Positions 4,538 to 11,630 of a DNA stretch of 46,269 nucleotides are shown one piece after another (within the stretch, counting starts at the first letter, position 1; every line of letters starts with the position of its first letter). The stretch spans positions 1-46,269 of the forward strand of contig JALSQI010000027.1 in assembly GCA_026985525.1 (NCBI GenBank), in the 5' to 3' direction. The notes beneath the pieces were generated by a model that did no database searches, was not told the DNA's origin, and worked only from the letters and a program-made list of their open reading frames with translations. Position numbers and translations under genes: made by a program. Source of the stretch: Archaeoglobaceae archaeon (lineage in GTDB: Archaea > Halobacteriota > Archaeoglobi > Archaeoglobales > Archaeoglobaceae).

Positions 4538-6043
4538 ATGAACTGGGCGAGCTATCCAGCGTTTGGGGACAGAGTACTTTCGATGATAGGTATAGAAGTG
4601 CACTGGATAATTTTGCAGTACATATTGGGATTACCACTGCTTGCAGTTATAGCAGAAATAATCTGGCTTAAAACGAGAGATGAGAGGTGGCTTAAAGTTG
4701 CAAAAACGATCGCAAAGGGCTTTATAATGGTTTTTGCTGTTGGAGCGGCGATGGGTACGGCAGCGGAGTTTGGTCTTGTTTTGCTCTGGCCAAATCTAAC
4801 AGAAATAGCTGGGAAATACATATACTTCCCGCTGTATGCCGAAATATTTGCTTTTATGATGGAAGTAGTCTTTATATATATGTACTACTATGGATGGGAA
4901 AAATTGCCAGAAAAAGCCCACGTAGTAGTCGGTTTACTTGCGTTGACGGGTGCTTGGTTTTCTGCTACAATGATAGTCAGTGTTAACTGCTACATGCAAG
5001 CTCCTACGGGCATACTGCTCGGAAGTTATGCGAAGGGCTATCCAAAGTTAACACTTTACGTTCCAAGCACGATAGTTTCAGCTTTAAACGTTACAACCCT
5101 TCAATTAGCCGGAATGGATGTGTTGGGAAAAGCTGGTAACAGCGTTATAGTTGCTATGCCAAGTAAAATAGTAAAAGTGATAGTAGCTGACGCAGTCGCA
5201 GGAAAAACTGTATCTCACAGCGTTTTGTGGAAAGTTCTAACACCAGCTGCAAAAACGAAGTTGGCAAACGTAACAGTTATGGCGATTTTAGATGCAATAA
5301 TGTTCGATACAGTTAGGCACATAGGGGTATATACTGTAACTTTCAAATCTCCCGTATTCGCTCCTTCCGTATTACACGCAGTAGGCTCTGGAATTGTTGT
5401 TTCAGCTTTTACAGTCATGGCGTTTTTTGCTTACTCGTTTTACAAGAGGGGTTCCGAGCATGCAAAATTGGGTTACAAGTACGGAGCTGTATTTTCTTTA
5501 ATTTCAATAGTCTATCAGGGTTTTGTAAGCGGACATGAGATGGGAGTTGCTGTTGCAGAGTGGAACAGAGAAAAGTTTGCAGCCATACTTCACGGTTCTC
5601 CACCTTTCGTAGAAAAAATGGAATTAGCTCTGGCAGGAGTTAAAAACATCGTTTCATACAATCAGATACCTCTCTGGCTTAGACCTCCGACTATAATCCA
5701 CTACTTCTACTATACAAAAGTAACTCTTGCAGTTTTGTTAGGTCTTTCTGCCTTAGTAATCGTTTACATGTTGTTCGTGAAAAAGAAAGAATTTTGCAGT
5801 CCATATATGCTAATACTTCCAGTAATTGCTCAGCTTGTAAGTTTTCTTGGATGGGCAGTTAGAGAAGTTGGCAGGAAACCGTGGACTATTTACGGAATAA
5901 TGGATGTAAAAACTGCACACACAATAAACCCTCCACCTCTGTGGGTTGACTTCTTAGTAGAGGCTTACTTTATAGGCTTGTTAATACTACTATGCTACGC
6001 AGTCTATAGATTTCTCTGGAAAGCTGGGGAGGTGAAAGCATGA
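4538..6043 (+). CDS. cydA: bd-type oxygen reductase catalytic subunit CydA (CydAA' type)
   Basis: This 501-residue membrane protein is the heme-bearing subunit that reduces oxygen at the expense of quinol. H22 matches the E. coli H19 heme ligand and H280 (SVLHAVGSG) matches H186. E109 in the FAFMMEVVF helix matches E107. The quinol region keeps K346 (REKFAA) and GRKPW at 445-449 (usual GRQPW). The position of E. coli E257 is Leu351, and that of the heme b558 ligand Met393 appears to be Thr396. An extra loop of roughly 80 residues lies between YMQAPTG (152-158) and H280. The next gene is a paralogue, not CydB, which fits the archaeal CydAA' family described by Murali and colleagues. Confidence 0.9.
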   Translation: MNWASYPAFGDRVLSMIGIEVHWIILQYILGLPLLAVIAEIIWLKTRDERWLKVAKTIAKGFIMVFAVGAAMGTAAEFGLVLLWPNLTEIAGKYIYFPLYAEIFAFMMEVVFIYMYYYGWEKLPEKAHVVVGLLALTGAWFSATMIVSVNCYMQAPTGILLGSYAKGYPKLTLYVPSTIVSALNVTTLQLAGMDVLGKAGNSVIVAMPSKIVKVIVADAVAGKTVSHSVLWKVLTPAAKTKLANVTVMAILDAIMFDTVRHIGVYTVTFKSPVFAPSVLHAVGSGIVVSAFTVMAFFAYSFYKRGSEHAKLGYKYGAVFSLISIVYQGFVSGHEMGVAVAEWNREKFAAILHGSPPFVEKMELALAGVKNIVSYNQIPLWLRPPTIIHYFYYTKVTLAVLLGLSALVIVYMLFVKKKEFCSPYMLILPVIAQLVSFLGWAVREVGRKPWTIYGIMDVKTAHTINPPPLWVDFLVEAYFIGLLILLCYAVYRFLWKAGEVKA

Positions 6044-7122
6044 TACTTGAGTTTTTGGCTTTAACTTTTGGTCTTCACATTCTCTTAGTAAACCTCGCAA
6101 TAGGATTATCGACTGTAATACCTTTGATGAAAAGGGCTGGGGAGAGAGGTAACAAGGAATTAATATTAATTGCGAGAAAGCTAATGAAGTTTTACGCCGC
6201 AACCTATGGACTTGGTGGTGTTTTGGGAACTGCTTTTACCGTGTTTCTATTGAGCTTCTATCCCGGTTTTATAGGCTTGGCTGGAAACATAGCTTTCGTC
6301 CCGTTCGCATTATCGATACTGCTCATATGCCTGCACTTTATATCCATAGTGATATACTGGTACGGCTGGGATAAGCTTTCCCCAGAAACGCACTTTTTGG
6401 CAGGAGTAGCAATGATGACTTCTGCAATCCTTATACCCTTAGGCTTTAGAGCTATATTTGGCTTTTTAAACGCACCCGTAGGTTTAGAATTACAGCCGAA
6501 AATACACCTCGACACATTAAAAGCGCTCAGTAATCCAACGTTTTTAACTCTATACCCCAAGAGCATTTTCGCTTCTTATACTCTAACGTTCTTCTTACTG
6601 TCAGCCGTTTTTGCTAAAAAAGAGATTTCGTTAAAGTTTGCTAAGTATGGGCTTGTAACGCTATCCATAACAGCTTTGCTTGGAATAGCCTACGCTGAAA
6701 CGCTGAGAACTATAGCACCATACAAATTTGCTAACGCTCTTGGATTTCTTTTTGGAATTCAAGCCAAGTACAACGTTGGATGGCTCTTCGCTCTCAAGAT
6801 GCTTTTCGTGACAATTCAGTTCGTTGCTATAGCTTACTTTTTAAAGTCTAAGAGGGCTATTTTTGCTGAGATTGCTGGCGTTTCTGCATCAATATCAGTT
6901 GTCGCAGGTGAACTGCTCAACGCATTTAGCCAGTATCCAATGTTGATAGCAAATGTTTCAGGAATTCCTGCTAACGTTGCTACTCAGCTTGAAAACATTC
7001 TAAACATGGCAAAACCAAATCCATTAACGACTATGAACAGTTTGTACGCTATAACTCTCGCATTTCTAGTCCCTCTACTTGCTTGCTTCGCTTTCTTAGT
7101 TTACATGATAGCAAAAGATTGA
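6040..7122 (+). CDS. CydA' paralogous subunit of the oxygen reductase
   Basis: This 360-residue polytopic protein replaces CydB. Its N-terminal half aligns with the upstream CydA: H13 (FGLHILLVNLAIG) against H22, and YGWDKLSPETH...NAPVG against YGWEKLPEKAH...QAPTG. It lacks other heme-site residues: the E77 and E109 positions are Thr and His, and the H280 position is Ala (SIFASYTL). This is the pattern of CydA', a duplicated and degenerate CydA that pairs with CydA. The start overlaps the cydA stop (ATGA), indicating coupled translation. A CydB label would be a mis-annotation. Confidence 0.85.
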   Translation: MILEFLALTFGLHILLVNLAIGLSTVIPLMKRAGERGNKELILIARKLMKFYAATYGLGGVLGTAFTVFLLSFYPGFIGLAGNIAFVPFALSILLICLHFISIVIYWYGWDKLSPETHFLAGVAMMTSAILIPLGFRAIFGFLNAPVGLELQPKIHLDTLKALSNPTFLTLYPKSIFASYTLTFFLLSAVFAKKEISLKFAKYGLVTLSITALLGIAYAETLRTIAPYKFANALGFLFGIQAKYNVGWLFALKMLFVTIQFVAIAYFLKSKRAIFAEIAGVSASISVVAGELLNAFSQYPMLIANVSGIPANVATQLENILNMAKPNPLTTMNSLYAITLAFLVPLLACFAFLVYMIAKD

Positions 7123-7202: not shown

Positions 7203-7871
7203 ATGAACATGGTGGAGCAAAAATATCAACTGATTCCCGGTGTGGAGCTAAGGAAAGGCTCGAACGTTATGATATACGGTCCAACGTTTTCTGGAAAAGC
7301 TATGTTCGCAAAATCCACTTTCAGAAAACTAATCAATTCGAACTATGGCGGTATATACGTTTTGACGAGGGAAACAGCTGAACAGCTAATAGAGTGGCTC
7401 GGTAACGATTACAATCCAAACAAAGTAAAGATAATTGACTGCGTAACTAAATCTATGACTGGAGAGGCTAAGGATACTGCGTCTATAAAGAGAGTGACTG
7501 TTATGGATTTAACTGGAATTTCAGCCAAAATCAGTAAGTTCTTCGAGGAATTCTGGAGGAGCGGAGTGAAAGACGTAATCTTAGTTTTCGATTCTCTCTC
7601 AACTTTGCTTATGTACCTAAACATTCAAACTGTCTTCAGGTTTCTACACATCCTTACTGGCAGGGTTAAGATGACAGGAGCTATAGCTTTCTACATAGTA
7701 GAAGAAGGTATGCACGACGAAAAAACGATAGTCACTTTAAAACAGCTGTTCAACGGCATGATAGAATTTAAAGAAGAAAACGGCAAAAAATACGTTCGCT
7801 TTGTCAGCTCACTCGTTAAAACAGAGTGGTTTGAAATTGTAGTTGATGAAAACAGCGTGGTGATCGCATGA
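7203..7871 (+). CDS. RecA/KaiC-like ATPase
   Basis: This 222-residue single-domain protein belongs to the RecA/KaiC superfamily. The Walker A is GPTFSGKA (26-33), with alanine where Ser/Thr is usual, and the Walker B is ILVFDSLSTLL. It resembles archaeal RAD55/FlaH-like ATPases of unknown role. The gene heads a four-gene unit; its end overlaps the next gene by four bases. A TATA-like GTAAATATACG lies about 26 bases before the ATG. It probably acts with the GTPase fusion downstream; the substrate is unknown. Confidence 0.75.
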   Translation: MNMVEQKYQLIPGVELRKGSNVMIYGPTFSGKAMFAKSTFRKLINSNYGGIYVLTRETAEQLIEWLGNDYNPNKVKIIDCVTKSMTGEAKDTASIKRVTVMDLTGISAKISKFFEEFWRSGVKDVILVFDSLSTLLMYLNIQTVFRFLHILTGRVKMTGAIAFYIVEEGMHDEKTIVTLKQLFNGMIEFKEENGKKYVRFVSSLVKTEWFEIVVDENSVVIA

Positions 7872-9037
7872 AAGCTGTTACGGGCATACCCGTATTAGAT
7901 GAAGTAGTTGAAGAATTCCCAGAAAGTAAAACTTTGACTTACTGGATAGATCCAGAAGTAGAGGGAAATGCATTTGCTATGCAGACTATATATACTAACT
8001 TGGAAAGGGGTTTTAAATGTGCATACGTTACAGTAACCATTTCTCCCGAATCCGTAATTTCTGAATTCGAGGAATTTGGCTGGGAAGTTAAGGAATTTGA
8101 GAACTTTGAAATCGTTGATTTGTACTCAAGCTATGTTGGTTTTCCTTCAAAGTGCAAGTATAATGCAAATCCGATAAACTTGGAAGAAGTCGAGGTGCTT
8201 ATGAAAAAGGTATTGGAGAAGTTCGACATCGTATTTCTCCCAGCCTCTTCAATAATAGACGTTTGCGGAGAGGAGGCACTTAGATGCATTAAAGACTGGT
8301 GCAGTCTTGCAAAAAGTATTGGTAAGAGGGTTGTTTTATCCTTTGTAGCATGGCCCTACTCAAAAGAAGTTAAAGATGGGATAATAGAAATTTCGAATGC
8401 TTTGGTTAAAGTAGGTGGAATACATCACAGAGTTATACTTGGCTATTACTATGGTCTGGTTAAAGCCGACTGGAAAAACGTCAAAAGCAGGGCTATTCTA
8501 TTTAAGTTAGTTCGACCGGGTGGTGTTAGAGCATACATACCAAAAATTCTCGTTACAGGCCCATACAACGCTGGAAAATCGAGTTTTGTTCACGCCATTT
8601 CTAATAGAGCTGTATCCGTTGACAGGTTGGGGACTACAGTTGCTTTGGATCATGGCCACCTTGAATACAAGGGTTTTTCGATAGATCTATTTGGAACGCC
8701 CGGACAGGAGAGATTTGACCCAATACTACGAATGCTTGGTAAAGAAGCTCTTGGAGTTATATTAGTTGTCGATTCGACAAAACCCGAAACTTTTCCGAGA
8801 GCAAAGCAGATGCTTGAATCTGTAACTCACTTCGGACTGCCATACGTCGTAGCTGCGAACAAACAGGATTTGCCCAACGCCCTTCCTCCAGAAGAGATAA
8901 AAAGGAGGATGGTTTTGCCGAATGATGTGCCGGTAATACCGATTTCTGCAGTTAAAGGGGAAGGCGTTTACAAAGTTATTGATGCCTTGTTAGATTTGCT
9001 TATATGGCGGGAGGGAGAAGATGAGCTTGAGATCTGA
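7868..9037 (+). CDS. RecA-like domain fused to a Ras-superfamily small GTPase
   Basis: This protein has 389 residues. Residues 1-215 look like a KaiC/RecA-type domain without a Walker A. Residues 224-380 are a complete small GTPase: P-loop GPYNAGKSS (231-239), switch I Thr in GTTVAL, DLFGTPGQERF (273-283), NKQD (331-334) and SA (360-361). The DLFGTPGQ and LVVDSTKP stretches resemble the prokaryotic MglA/COG2229 group. It is encoded between an ATPase and a Roadblock protein, overlapping both genes, so a GTP switch controlled by that Roadblock protein is likely. Confidence 0.85.
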   Translation: MKAVTGIPVLDEVVEEFPESKTLTYWIDPEVEGNAFAMQTIYTNLERGFKCAYVTVTISPESVISEFEEFGWEVKEFENFEIVDLYSSYVGFPSKCKYNANPINLEEVEVLMKKVLEKFDIVFLPASSIIDVCGEEALRCIKDWCSLAKSIGKRVVLSFVAWPYSKEVKDGIIEISNALVKVGGIHHRVILGYYYGLVKADWKNVKSRAILFKLVRPGGVRAYIPKILVTGPYNAGKSSFVHAISNRAVSVDRLGTTVALDHGHLEYKGFSIDLFGTPGQERFDPILRMLGKEALGVILVVDSTKPETFPRAKQMLESVTHFGLPYVVAANKQDLPNALPPEEIKRRMVLPNDVPVIPISAVKGEGVYKVIDALLDLLIWREGEDELEI

Positions 9038-9386
9038 ACTTGAAGAAGTTTTGAAGGAATTGAAAGCAACGGGAGATATAGAAGCATCAGCAATAGTTTC
9101 GAGAGATGGATTGTTGATAGCTGCTGACATATCTTCAAACGTTAATGCTGAGGCTTTTGCGGCTATGAGTGCTACTATGCTTGGCGCGGCAGAAACTGCG
9201 ATGTCTGAACTTGGGAAAGGATTGCCGGATAGAGTTGTAGTTGAGAGTTCAGACGGTAAAATAGTTGCTACGGGTGCGGGAGATAGAGCTTTGTTAGTCG
9301 TAATGACGTCTCCAAAAGCGAATCTGGGTTTAATTCTGCTTCAATTGGGTAAAGCGAGTAAAAAAGTCGAGGAGTTGTTGGGGTGA
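9021..9386 (+). CDS. Roadblock/LC7-domain protein (MglB-like)
   Basis: This 121-residue protein is a single Roadblock/LC7 domain: it begins with a helix (ELEEVLKEL), then IEASAIVSRDGLLIAADI and the long helix rich in Ala/Met (EAFAAMSATMLGAAETAM), ending RALLVVMTSPKANLGLIL. Such proteins dimerise and act as GAPs or regulators of small GTPases such as MglA. It overlaps the GTPase-fusion gene by 17 bases, with GGGAGAAG before its ATG, and a V4R gene follows within 5 bases. Confidence 0.88.
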   Translation: MSLRSELEEVLKELKATGDIEASAIVSRDGLLIAADISSNVNAEAFAAMSATMLGAAETAMSELGKGLPDRVVVESSDGKIVATGAGDRALLVVMTSPKANLGLILLQLGKASKKVEELLG

Positions 9387-9390
9387 GAAC

Positions 9391-9966
9391 GTGTTTGATG
9401 CGTTAGTTAGCGAGGATTTGAGAGATTTTAGCGAAGAAGAGCTTGATAAACTGTTTGTAGTACACGAGGAAGGAATAAAGCAATTCTTGGGAAGGATACC
9501 TCTCGGATGTATATACGCCACTTTTCTGTCGGGCTTGTATGTGGAGATGGAGAAAATAGTAGGGAGAGCTGCGAGAGGTTTGATAATAAACGCTTCTAAG
9601 AACAGAGGTAAGATAGCTGGAAACGCTATAAGGAGAAGGTACGAGAAAAAGTACGGTGAAATGAGCGTTGAAAGGGCTAAAATGGTTGCGAGAAACATGC
9701 TTGTTATATGGGGCAAGTGCTTTGGCTGGGGAAAGATGAGTTTTAAAGTTAACGATACGGAATTCTGGCTCGAAGTGGAAGATTCCTTGGAGGCTACTGG
9801 ATTTTTAAAGCTTAAAGAGAAACCTAAGGGGCCGGTTTGCTGGATGTTACTCGGCTACTCTTGGGGCTTACTCGAAGGGCTATTTAACAGAAAGTTTGAA
9901 GGTGAGGAGGTGGAGTGCAAAGCTGTAGGAGGTGAGAAGTGTAGGTTCGTTTTCAGAACTATCTGA
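9391..9966 (+). CDS. V4R (4-vinyl reductase) domain protein, putative sensor
   Basis: This 191-residue protein ends with the V4R signature, GEEVECKAVGGEKCRFVF, with the paired cysteines typical of this small-molecule binding fold. An N-terminal helical part of about 60 residues precedes it. V4R domains bind hydrocarbons or tetrapyrrole-like ligands in some regulators; the ligand here is unknown. The GTG start is preceded by GGGGTGAGAAC. Its place at the end of the ATPase/GTPase/Roadblock unit suggests it feeds a signal to the GTP switch. Confidence 0.78.
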   Translation: MFDALVSEDLRDFSEEELDKLFVVHEEGIKQFLGRIPLGCIYATFLSGLYVEMEKIVGRAARGLIINASKNRGKIAGNAIRRRYEKKYGEMSVERAKMVARNMLVIWGKCFGWGKMSFKVNDTEFWLEVEDSLEATGFLKLKEKPKGPVCWMLLGYSWGLLEGLFNRKFEGEEVECKAVGGEKCRFVFRTI

Positions 9967-10003
9967 GTAAAGTATTTTTACCCCATTTTGCTATTTTGTG
10001 AAG

Positions 10004-10705
10004 ATGAGAATACCTCTTTACGTTGAGTTTAAAGGAAAAAACGTTTTGATAATTGGCGGTGGAGGAGTCGGAGCTTCGAGAGCAAAAAAGTTCTTAAAAG
10101 CTGGAGCAAATGTTAGAGTTCTCAGCCTTGATTTTTGTAACGAATTGAAAGAAATGGAGAAAAAAGGAGAAGTGAAATTAGTGGAAGGAAACGCTTTTGA
10201 CGAAAAACTTTTGGAGGAGAACATTTCTTGGGCGAACTTGGTTACGGTAGCTATACCTCCATTGGAAATAAACGATAAAGTGATTGAACTGGCAAAGAAG
10301 TACAGGACTCTCGTCAACCTCGCTAACGACGCTGAGAAAACTGAAGTCGTCGTGCCTTTCGAAGGAGAAGTAGATGGAATTAGGTTTGCAGTTACTACCG
10401 AAGGTAAGAGCGGAGTGGTGGCGAGAAAGGTGAGAGATTCGATTAAAAAGATGCTTGAAGAGGACGAAGAAATAATCTACTTCTTAAAGGCTATGTACTA
10501 TCTCAAGAGGTACATGAAAAAGAGGAAAATACCTATTCACATGAGGATGAAGCTTTACTTTGTAATATCTTCAAACCCTGAGTTTGTTGAAATGGTTAAG
10601 AAAGAGGACGTTGAAGGAGCAAAGAAGTTGGTGGAGAAATTAGTAGAAGAATACGTTTCGGGAAAGAGGGATGTAGATGAAAGTTCAGTCAAAATCAACT
10701 TTTGA
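10004..10705 (+). CDS. Precorrin-2 dehydrogenase / sirohydrochlorin-forming enzyme
   Basis: The protein matches the Met8p/SirC/CysG-N family, which oxidises precorrin-2 to sirohydrochlorin with NAD+ and may insert iron. It starts with a Rossmann motif (VLIIGGGGVGASRAKKFL) and keeps TTEGKSGVVARKVRDSI, the usual signature near the substrate site. Start: a TATA-like AGTATTTTTACC (9971-9982) sits about 27 bases before ATG 10004, so I prefer this over GTG 9998. The next gene, overlapping by 29 bases, acts later in the same siroheme-to-heme route. Confidence 0.9.
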   Translation: MRIPLYVEFKGKNVLIIGGGGVGASRAKKFLKAGANVRVLSLDFCNELKEMEKKGEVKLVEGNAFDEKLLEENISWANLVTVAIPPLEINDKVIELAKKYRTLVNLANDAEKTEVVVPFEGEVDGIRFAVTTEGKSGVVARKVRDSIKKMLEEDEEIIYFLKAMYYLKRYMKKRKIPIHMRMKLYFVISSNPEFVEMVKKEDVEGAKKLVEKLVEEYVSGKRDVDESSVKINF

Positions 10706-11630
10706 TGAAGAAACGACTAAGCTTTTAATGGGTATTCAGTATTCCTTACCCTTGACAACGACACCCTTAGTTGACCTTGCAGACGAGCTTGGGTTGAAAT
10801 CTGAATTCGTAATGAAAAAAGTAAAGGAGTTTTACGGAAACGTAATAAAGAGATACGGTGCCAATTTGAACTATAGGGCTTTTTCAAAACAGCAAAGAGC
10901 TGCATTAATAGCTGCAAGAGTTGACGAAAGCAGGATTAAAGAAGTGGCGAAGGTAATAAACTCTTACAATCCGAAGCACAACTACTGGAGAGACGATTAC
11001 TACAACGTCTGGTTTACATTAAAAGCGAAGGATGTCGATTCCGTAAAAGCTCTTGCTGAGGAGGTAATGGAGAAGTGCGGAGTTGAGGAATACATAATTC
11101 TGCCAACTAAGAGAGTTTACAAGATGGACGTAAAGTACGACTTGATAAGGGGTATTTCTTGGAGTGAAAAGAGCGAAGAAAAGTTTGATGTCCCAAAAGT
11201 TGAGGAATTGGGACTGGATGCGAACTTACTTAGAAAGTTGGAAAAGCTAAGAGTTACGGAAAGACCTTTCTCTAACTTAGGATATTCTGAAGAGGAATTA
11301 GTTGACTTAATAAAAGAATTAATAGACATGGGTGTTGTAAGAGACTTCAGCGGAGTTTTGAAGGAGAGATTAGCTGGATTTAAAGAAAACGGTATGAACG
11401 TAGTTAAAACGGAGGAGCCTGAAAAGGTTTCTAAAAAACTCGCAAAAAGACCGGAAATAACTCACTTAGTTGAAAGGGAAGTGCCTGAGAATTGGCAATA
11501 TCCCGTTTACTTCATGGTTCACGCAGTAAAAAGGGAGTACATAGAAAGGGTTAGAAGAGATGTGGAAAAAATGAGCGGAGTTGAGGAGATAAGAGTTCTG
11601 TACAGCATCATGGACTTAAAATACTCTTAG
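10677..11630 (+). CDS. ahbAB: Fused siroheme decarboxylase AhbA-AhbB (Lrp/AsnC-like)
   Basis: This 317-residue protein contains two tandem AhbA/AhbB (NirD/L-like) units of about 160 residues, each with an N-terminal winged-helix part and a C-terminal ferredoxin-like part. The second ends ENWQYPVYFMVHAV, a family hallmark; the first has the weaker NVWFTLKA. AhbA and AhbB normally form a heterodimer that decarboxylates siroheme to 12,18-didecarboxysiroheme in the alternative heme route. Fusion gives fixed stoichiometry. The gene overlaps the dehydrogenase gene by 29 bases. Start ATG 10677 follows GAGGGATG. Confidence 0.87.
   Translation: MKVQSKSTFDEETTKLLMGIQYSLPLTTTPLVDLADELGLKSEFVMKKVKEFYGNVIKRYGANLNYRAFSKQQRAALIAARVDESRIKEVAKVINSYNPKHNYWRDDYYNVWFTLKAKDVDSVKALAEEVMEKCGVEEYIILPTKRVYKMDVKYDLIRGISWSEKSEEKFDVPKVEELGLDANLLRKLEKLRVTERPFSNLGYSEEELVDLIKELIDMGVVRDFSGVLKERLAGFKENGMNVVKTEEPEKVSKKLAKRPEITHLVEREVPENWQYPVYFMVHAVKREYIERVRRDVEKMSGVEEIRVLYSIMDLKYS

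Follow-up and report, generated by a model that had tools for sequence, protein, structure and literature searches.

How a small GTPase fused to a RecA-fold domain might be controlled, and what it might control, is the question raised by four genes of a heat-loving archaeon of the Archaeoglobaceae. The DNA analysed, referred to as the window, comprises positions 1 to 46,269 of contig JALSQI010000027.1 of this Archaeoglobaceae archaeon, which belongs to a genome of 1.34 Mb in 81 contigs (G000). The four genes (Table 1) are tightly packed: genes 1 and 2 share 4 bp, genes 2 and 3 share 17 bp, and genes 3 and 4 are separated by 4 bp. A first, sequence-only reading had described them as overlapping or nearly abutting genes for a RecA-like ATPase, a RecA-like domain fused to a GTPase, a Roadblock protein and a V4R-domain protein. 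The ORF positions and the Pfam matches agree with this description and directly support both gene order and domain identity. With somewhat better than even confidence, the locus can be understood as a GTP switch of the MglA–MglB kind, built on a non-hydrolysing KaiC-derived scaffold, into which the V4R protein feeds as a ligand sensor.

Table 1. Features of the four-gene locus, from the ORF reading of the window (gene 2 as a whole occupies 7868-9037).
Feature	Position	Strand	Basis
Gene 1, KaiC/FlaH-like RecA-fold protein	7203..7871	+	Degenerate Walker A GPTFSGKA; Walker-B-like VFDSLS
Gene 2 N-terminal half, apparently inactivated KaiC-like domain	7868..8530	+	Without Walker A (DPEVEGNAF); KaiC PF06745
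Gene 2 C-terminal half, MglA-type small GTPase	8531..9037	+	Arf/Ras matches; G motifs; tree
Gene 3, Roadblock/LC7 protein	9021..9386	+	Pfam Robl_LC7 7e-17; PDB profile matches
Gene 4, V4R protein, predicted ligand sensor	9391..9966	+	Pfam V4R 5.7e-12; AF2 model; zinc-site alignment

Positions 4538-7122 of the window hold two adjoining, overlapping genes, each matching cytochrome bd subunit I (PF01654; 1.3e-60 and 8.6e-22). Sirohaem-type genes (NAD_binding_7; NirDL-like HTH and AsnC ligand-binding domains) occupy 9998-11630 and start 31 bp after the V4R gene. Genes of this type also lie 3' of V4R at the related loci L033-L035 and L067, and not at L036-L039.

Searching 148 genomes of the phylum with gene 2 returned matches in 35 at E <= 1e-20, the weakest of them over the GTPase alone. 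The neighbourhoods of these matches and 80 loci from public genomes were then scanned with profiles of each gene, and removal of identical copies left 82 distinct fusions, hosted by Archaeoglobaceae, Methanosarcinales/ANME-2, Methanomicrobiales, DPANN and others. In 69 of the 82 distinct fusions a same-strand gene 1 is located no more than 100 bp away, and the Roadblock gene is equally close in 60 of the 82, these neighbour counts being depressed by contig ends. Co-conservation of these three parts is thus directly supported. In Archaeoglobaceae relatives the order of all four genes is retained down to 64% identity, while the flanking genes vary between genera; L036-L039, for example, carry the four genes together with flanks unlike those of the window. 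The four-gene grouping therefore exceeds chance, its order being kept despite differing flanks. V4R has a narrower distribution: 10 of 10 Archaeoglobaceae copies have the gene within 1 kb, against 4 of the 72 other fusions within 5 kb, and it is a lineage-specific addition to the module. Among the 16 Methanomicrobiales fusions, none has an adjacent Roadblock gene. Since Roadblock is non-adjacent in these fusions and V4R is missing from most modules, neither is strictly needed. The expectation that the gene set would prove a conserved unit, and not be scattered in relatives, consequently holds for gene 1, the fusion and Roadblock, and needs revision for V4R, which is the local part, tied to the Archaeoglobaceae. 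A 620-aa gene upstream in Methanomicrobiales, which gave a weak match to the fusion, was rejected as FeoB-like. In a deep Archaeoglobaceae relative (L070, 1846-2409), a protoglobin gene is located between Roadblock and V4R.

The GTPase half of the fusion (gene 2 residues 226-376; Pfam Arf 3e-14, Ras 3e-10) contains the motifs G1 GPYNAGKSS, switch I DRLGTTVA, G3 LFGTPGQERF, G4 NKQD and G5 SAVK. It is a P-loop GTPase with an FGTPGQ-type G3 motif that does not have the usual Asp, the feature by which the MglA family is defined (PMC4316618). G1, G3 and G4 are conserved in nearly all of the 88 relatives, with deviants such as L050 (GTPGH) and L126 (NFQN). In a tree that sampled the fusions and bacterial MglA and left out Rup, Arf and Ras, all fused GTPases fall into a single clade that lies beside the sampled bacterial MglA and is separate from them, some deep joins being weak. 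The FGTPGQ motif and this single clade, from which the sampled bacterial MglA proteins are excluded, support the earlier reading of the GTPase as MglA-type. One stand-alone GTPase falls inside the fusion clade and is best read as one later loss of the fusion.

Both RecA-fold parts belong to the KaiC superfamily, as they match KaiC PF06745 above its cut-off of 26.6 bits: gene 1 with 29.6 bits (5.5e-7) and gene 2 residues 5-119 with 36.5 bits (4.5e-9). Gene 1 also matches DUF7504 (1.1e-24), and its profile matches among solved structures are KaiC (8zn5) and FlaH (4yds/4wia). Superfamily membership of gene 1 would suit a machine with a KaiC hub, in which gene 1 is an active ATPase, its cycle is gated by the GTPase and V4R serves as the input. 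A motif survey lends this some substance, in that GK[ST] is kept in 16 of 76 gene 1 relatives, including two close ones (L034 and L067, GPAFTGKS), so gene 1 may hydrolyse ATP in these lineages. The window's own gene 1, however, departs from the Walker A consensus GxxxxGK[ST]: its motif is GPTFSGKA, exactly as first read, and its GKA ending is shared only with one congener (L033, GPTFAGKA). Many other relatives have GKE or GKD, the motif is lost in Methanomicrobiales, and the Walker-B-like D is changed to N in many Methanosarcinales. Judged by its sequence, the KaiC half of the fusion is inactive in every case, with GK[ST] in 0 of 88 fusion proteins and DPEVEGNAF in the window. Because Walker A is lost in the fusion and degenerate in most gene 1 relatives, both KaiC parts look retired as ATPases, and the GTPase, from its retained motifs, looks active; the loss of the one set of motifs and the retention of the other are observed directly. 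The coupling of the switch to a KaiC-like machine, which the sequence-only reading had suggested, is not borne out by these motifs, and an ATP-driven hub built around gene 1 appears quite unlikely.

The Roadblock protein is the candidate regulator of the GTPase. Gene 3 gives PDB profile matches to archaeal Roadblock, CvnB and MglB, and a genome search found it to be the only Roadblock gene in G000, where the fusion's sole strong GTPase match is the fusion itself. Its designation as the partner of the GTPase thus stands, with gene 3 as the only candidate in the genome. As in MglA–MglB, the Roadblock regulator is encoded with the GTPase, by gene overlap in the window and by proximity in the majority of distinct fusions counted above. 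L050 (5752-7392) represents a natural KaiC–GTPase–Roadblock fusion, and three other genomes of its family show this arrangement interrupted by a single stop codon at the junction. Gene overlap, the presence of a single Roadblock gene in the genome and the natural tri-fusion support a putative GTPase–Roadblock link. Distance correlations of the fusion with gene 1 and with Roadblock reached r about 0.88, a value that shared descent also yields and that hence is no evidence of contact.

Gene 4 matches V4R PF02830 with 46 bits against a cut-off of 31 (5.7e-12). Its AF2 model (pLDDT 91) aligns with PoxR/MopR at Z 17, with Bet3/TRAPPC3 at Z 12.3 and with the yeast Ypt1-activating TRAPP subassembly 3cue at Z 12.2, which directly supports a V4R fold. 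In the alignment, C150, C176 and C184 form C-x25-C-x7-C and are accompanied by the acidic E173; this corresponds to the MopR/DmpR-type spacing, as described for the zinc-site cysteines of DmpR (PMC7264223). On its model and alignment, gene 4 is best read as a MopR-like ligand sensor with a predicted zinc site. An assignment of gene 4 to the TRAPP/Bet3 type was rejected on the lower Z score for Bet3. The resemblance to Bet3 and to 3cue, the published homology of V4R and Bet3 (PMC2253512) and the vesicle formation that is driven by ArvA in Haloferax (PMC10927574) would nevertheless accord with a membrane-remodelling or trafficking switch, in which GTPase, Roadblock and V4R/Bet3-fold protein act at the cell membrane like a TRAPP–Rab core or like ArvA. 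Such a role is very unlikely, considering that the nearest V4R structures are bacterial phenol sensors and not Bet3, that Roadblock and longin belong to separate domain families, and that the downstream genes are outside the ArvB and ArvC families.

The near-complete absence of V4R from modules outside the Archaeoglobaceae, and the position of the sirohaem-type genes directly 3' of V4R in the window, L033-L035 and L067, can also be explained if gene 1, the fusion and Roadblock constitute the core, and V4R is cotranscribed with it in Archaeoglobaceae and acts elsewhere, for example with the downstream sirohaem genes. This explanation is rather unlikely, since L036-L039 keep V4R with the module and without the sirohaem-type genes, and since other lineages also have V4R in the vicinity of MglA or Roadblock. 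In L165 (1-938), a V4R gene overlaps a Roadblock gene that is cut by the contig end. In bacteria, V4R genes occur near stand-alone MglA at six loci (L130, L133, L137, L139, L143 and L146), and a weak V4R match is present about 5.6 kb from MglA on the L142 contig. Of 11 Chloroflexota genomes with 1-3 V4R domains each, approximately 7 (Anaerolineae) have V4R within about 6 kb of MglA, the loci having been picked by GTPase similarity and not by V4R, from related genomes and with counts that carry no background rate. The proximity of V4R to stand-alone MglA in Anaerolineae is independent of the Archaeoglobaceae module. Beyond PMC10933270, no literature tying V4R to MglA was found.

Besides MglA and V4R, the six Anaerolineae clusters encode a DUF4388 protein and alpha/beta-hydrolase-like, hexapeptide-repeat, shikimate-dehydrogenase-like, response-regulator-like and large sensor-like proteins. 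Seven Methanomicrobiales genomes with V4R in the neighbourhood of Roadblock were not counted as support; in the three that were read (L162-L164) the two are separated by several kb and several genes, and no GTPase was found. At these three loci, a protein with V4R domains in tandem is encoded a few kb away from paired Roadblock genes, and a ParA/MinD-like gene lies in the interval.

For the preferred reading, a GTP switch on a KaiC-derived scaffold, we infer complex formation, direction of regulation, ligand and output as follows. Locked into one polypeptide with an inactivated KaiC-like domain, the GTPase would pair with gene 1, a nucleotide-binding and probably poorly or non-hydrolysing KaiC-like protein. 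Fusion and gene 1 together may constitute a RecA-fold scaffold or effector platform that is comparable to ArlH, and not a machine powered by ATP. As GAP and/or GEF, the Roadblock protein, probably a dimer, would set the nucleotide state of the GTPase. In Archaeoglobaceae, V4R could, on binding a lipid or a small hydrophobic ligand, send a signal into the Roadblock/GTPase step. The archaellum is unlikely to be the only output, because the fusion occurs in the genomes G010, G019 and G026, which gave no PF01917 match.

With this module, archaeal MglA-type GTPases gain a conserved partner set; an earlier survey found no conserved neighbours for archaeal Group 4 MglA (PMC4316618). It also presents KaiC-derived domains that are kept without their ATPase motifs next to a retained GTPase. 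Should V4R act on the Roadblock step, the locus would provide a small model of a ligand-controlled small GTPase, using domain kinds shared with eukaryotic TRAPP. A more far-reaching interpretation, which is doubtful, would see here a class of archaeal signalling systems of ancient origin. Its MglA-type GTPase would have been transferred to a KaiC scaffold whose ATPase was subsequently lost, and V4R-fold sensors would repeatedly have been recruited as Roadblock/MglA inputs. If true, it would make the module a prokaryotic counterpart of TRAPP, where a small GTPase is acted on by a Bet3-fold protein together with domains of the Roadblock/longin family.

Signalling hubs of the archaeal KaiC family were reportedly proposed by Makarova et al. 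in 2017. The module shares with them KaiC-superfamily domains, inactivated members, named iKaiC in archaea (PMC5847659), and a proposed signalling role, but differs in the fusion to a GTPase and in sharing its operon with Roadblock (and V4R). The KaiC-like RecA fold is also common to ArlH/FlaH, and ArlH, a KaiC relative, binds ATP without hydrolysing it (PMC8978795). Unlike ArlH/FlaH, the module has no adjoining archaellum genes and is present in genomes without a PF01917 match. MglA–MglB of Myxococcus and Thermus and CvnD–CvnB of the Streptomyces conservon likewise place an MglA-type GTPase with an FGTPGQ G3 motif beside a Roadblock protein, whereas the GTPase of the module is fused to an inactivated KaiC domain, has a second KaiC-like partner and is not accompanied by a histidine kinase, DUF742 or RomR. 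The euryarchaeal ArvA–ArvB–ArvC system (PMC10927574) also combines an archaeal small GTPase with conserved neighbours, but ArvA is a stand-alone protein next to DUF2073 and DUF2072, and the module has Roadblock and KaiC instead; DUF2073 (ArvB) is absent downstream of the fusion, where Pfam identifies Roadblock, V4R, NAD_binding_7 and NirDL-like/AsnC in the window. With the V4R sensors MopR, PoxR and DmpR, gene 4 shares the fold over nearly the whole chain and the zinc-site spacing, yet it stands alone and is not fused to an AAA+ sigma-54 activator. Finally, the TRAPP core and the TRAPPC3, Roadblock and GTPase proteins of Asgard archaea unite a small GTPase, the Roadblock/longin family and the V4R/Bet3 fold (PMC10933270). 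In the Asgard strain MK-D1 such genes are generally found outside operons (PMC10933270), whereas those of the module are encoded together and its GTPase is of the MglA type.
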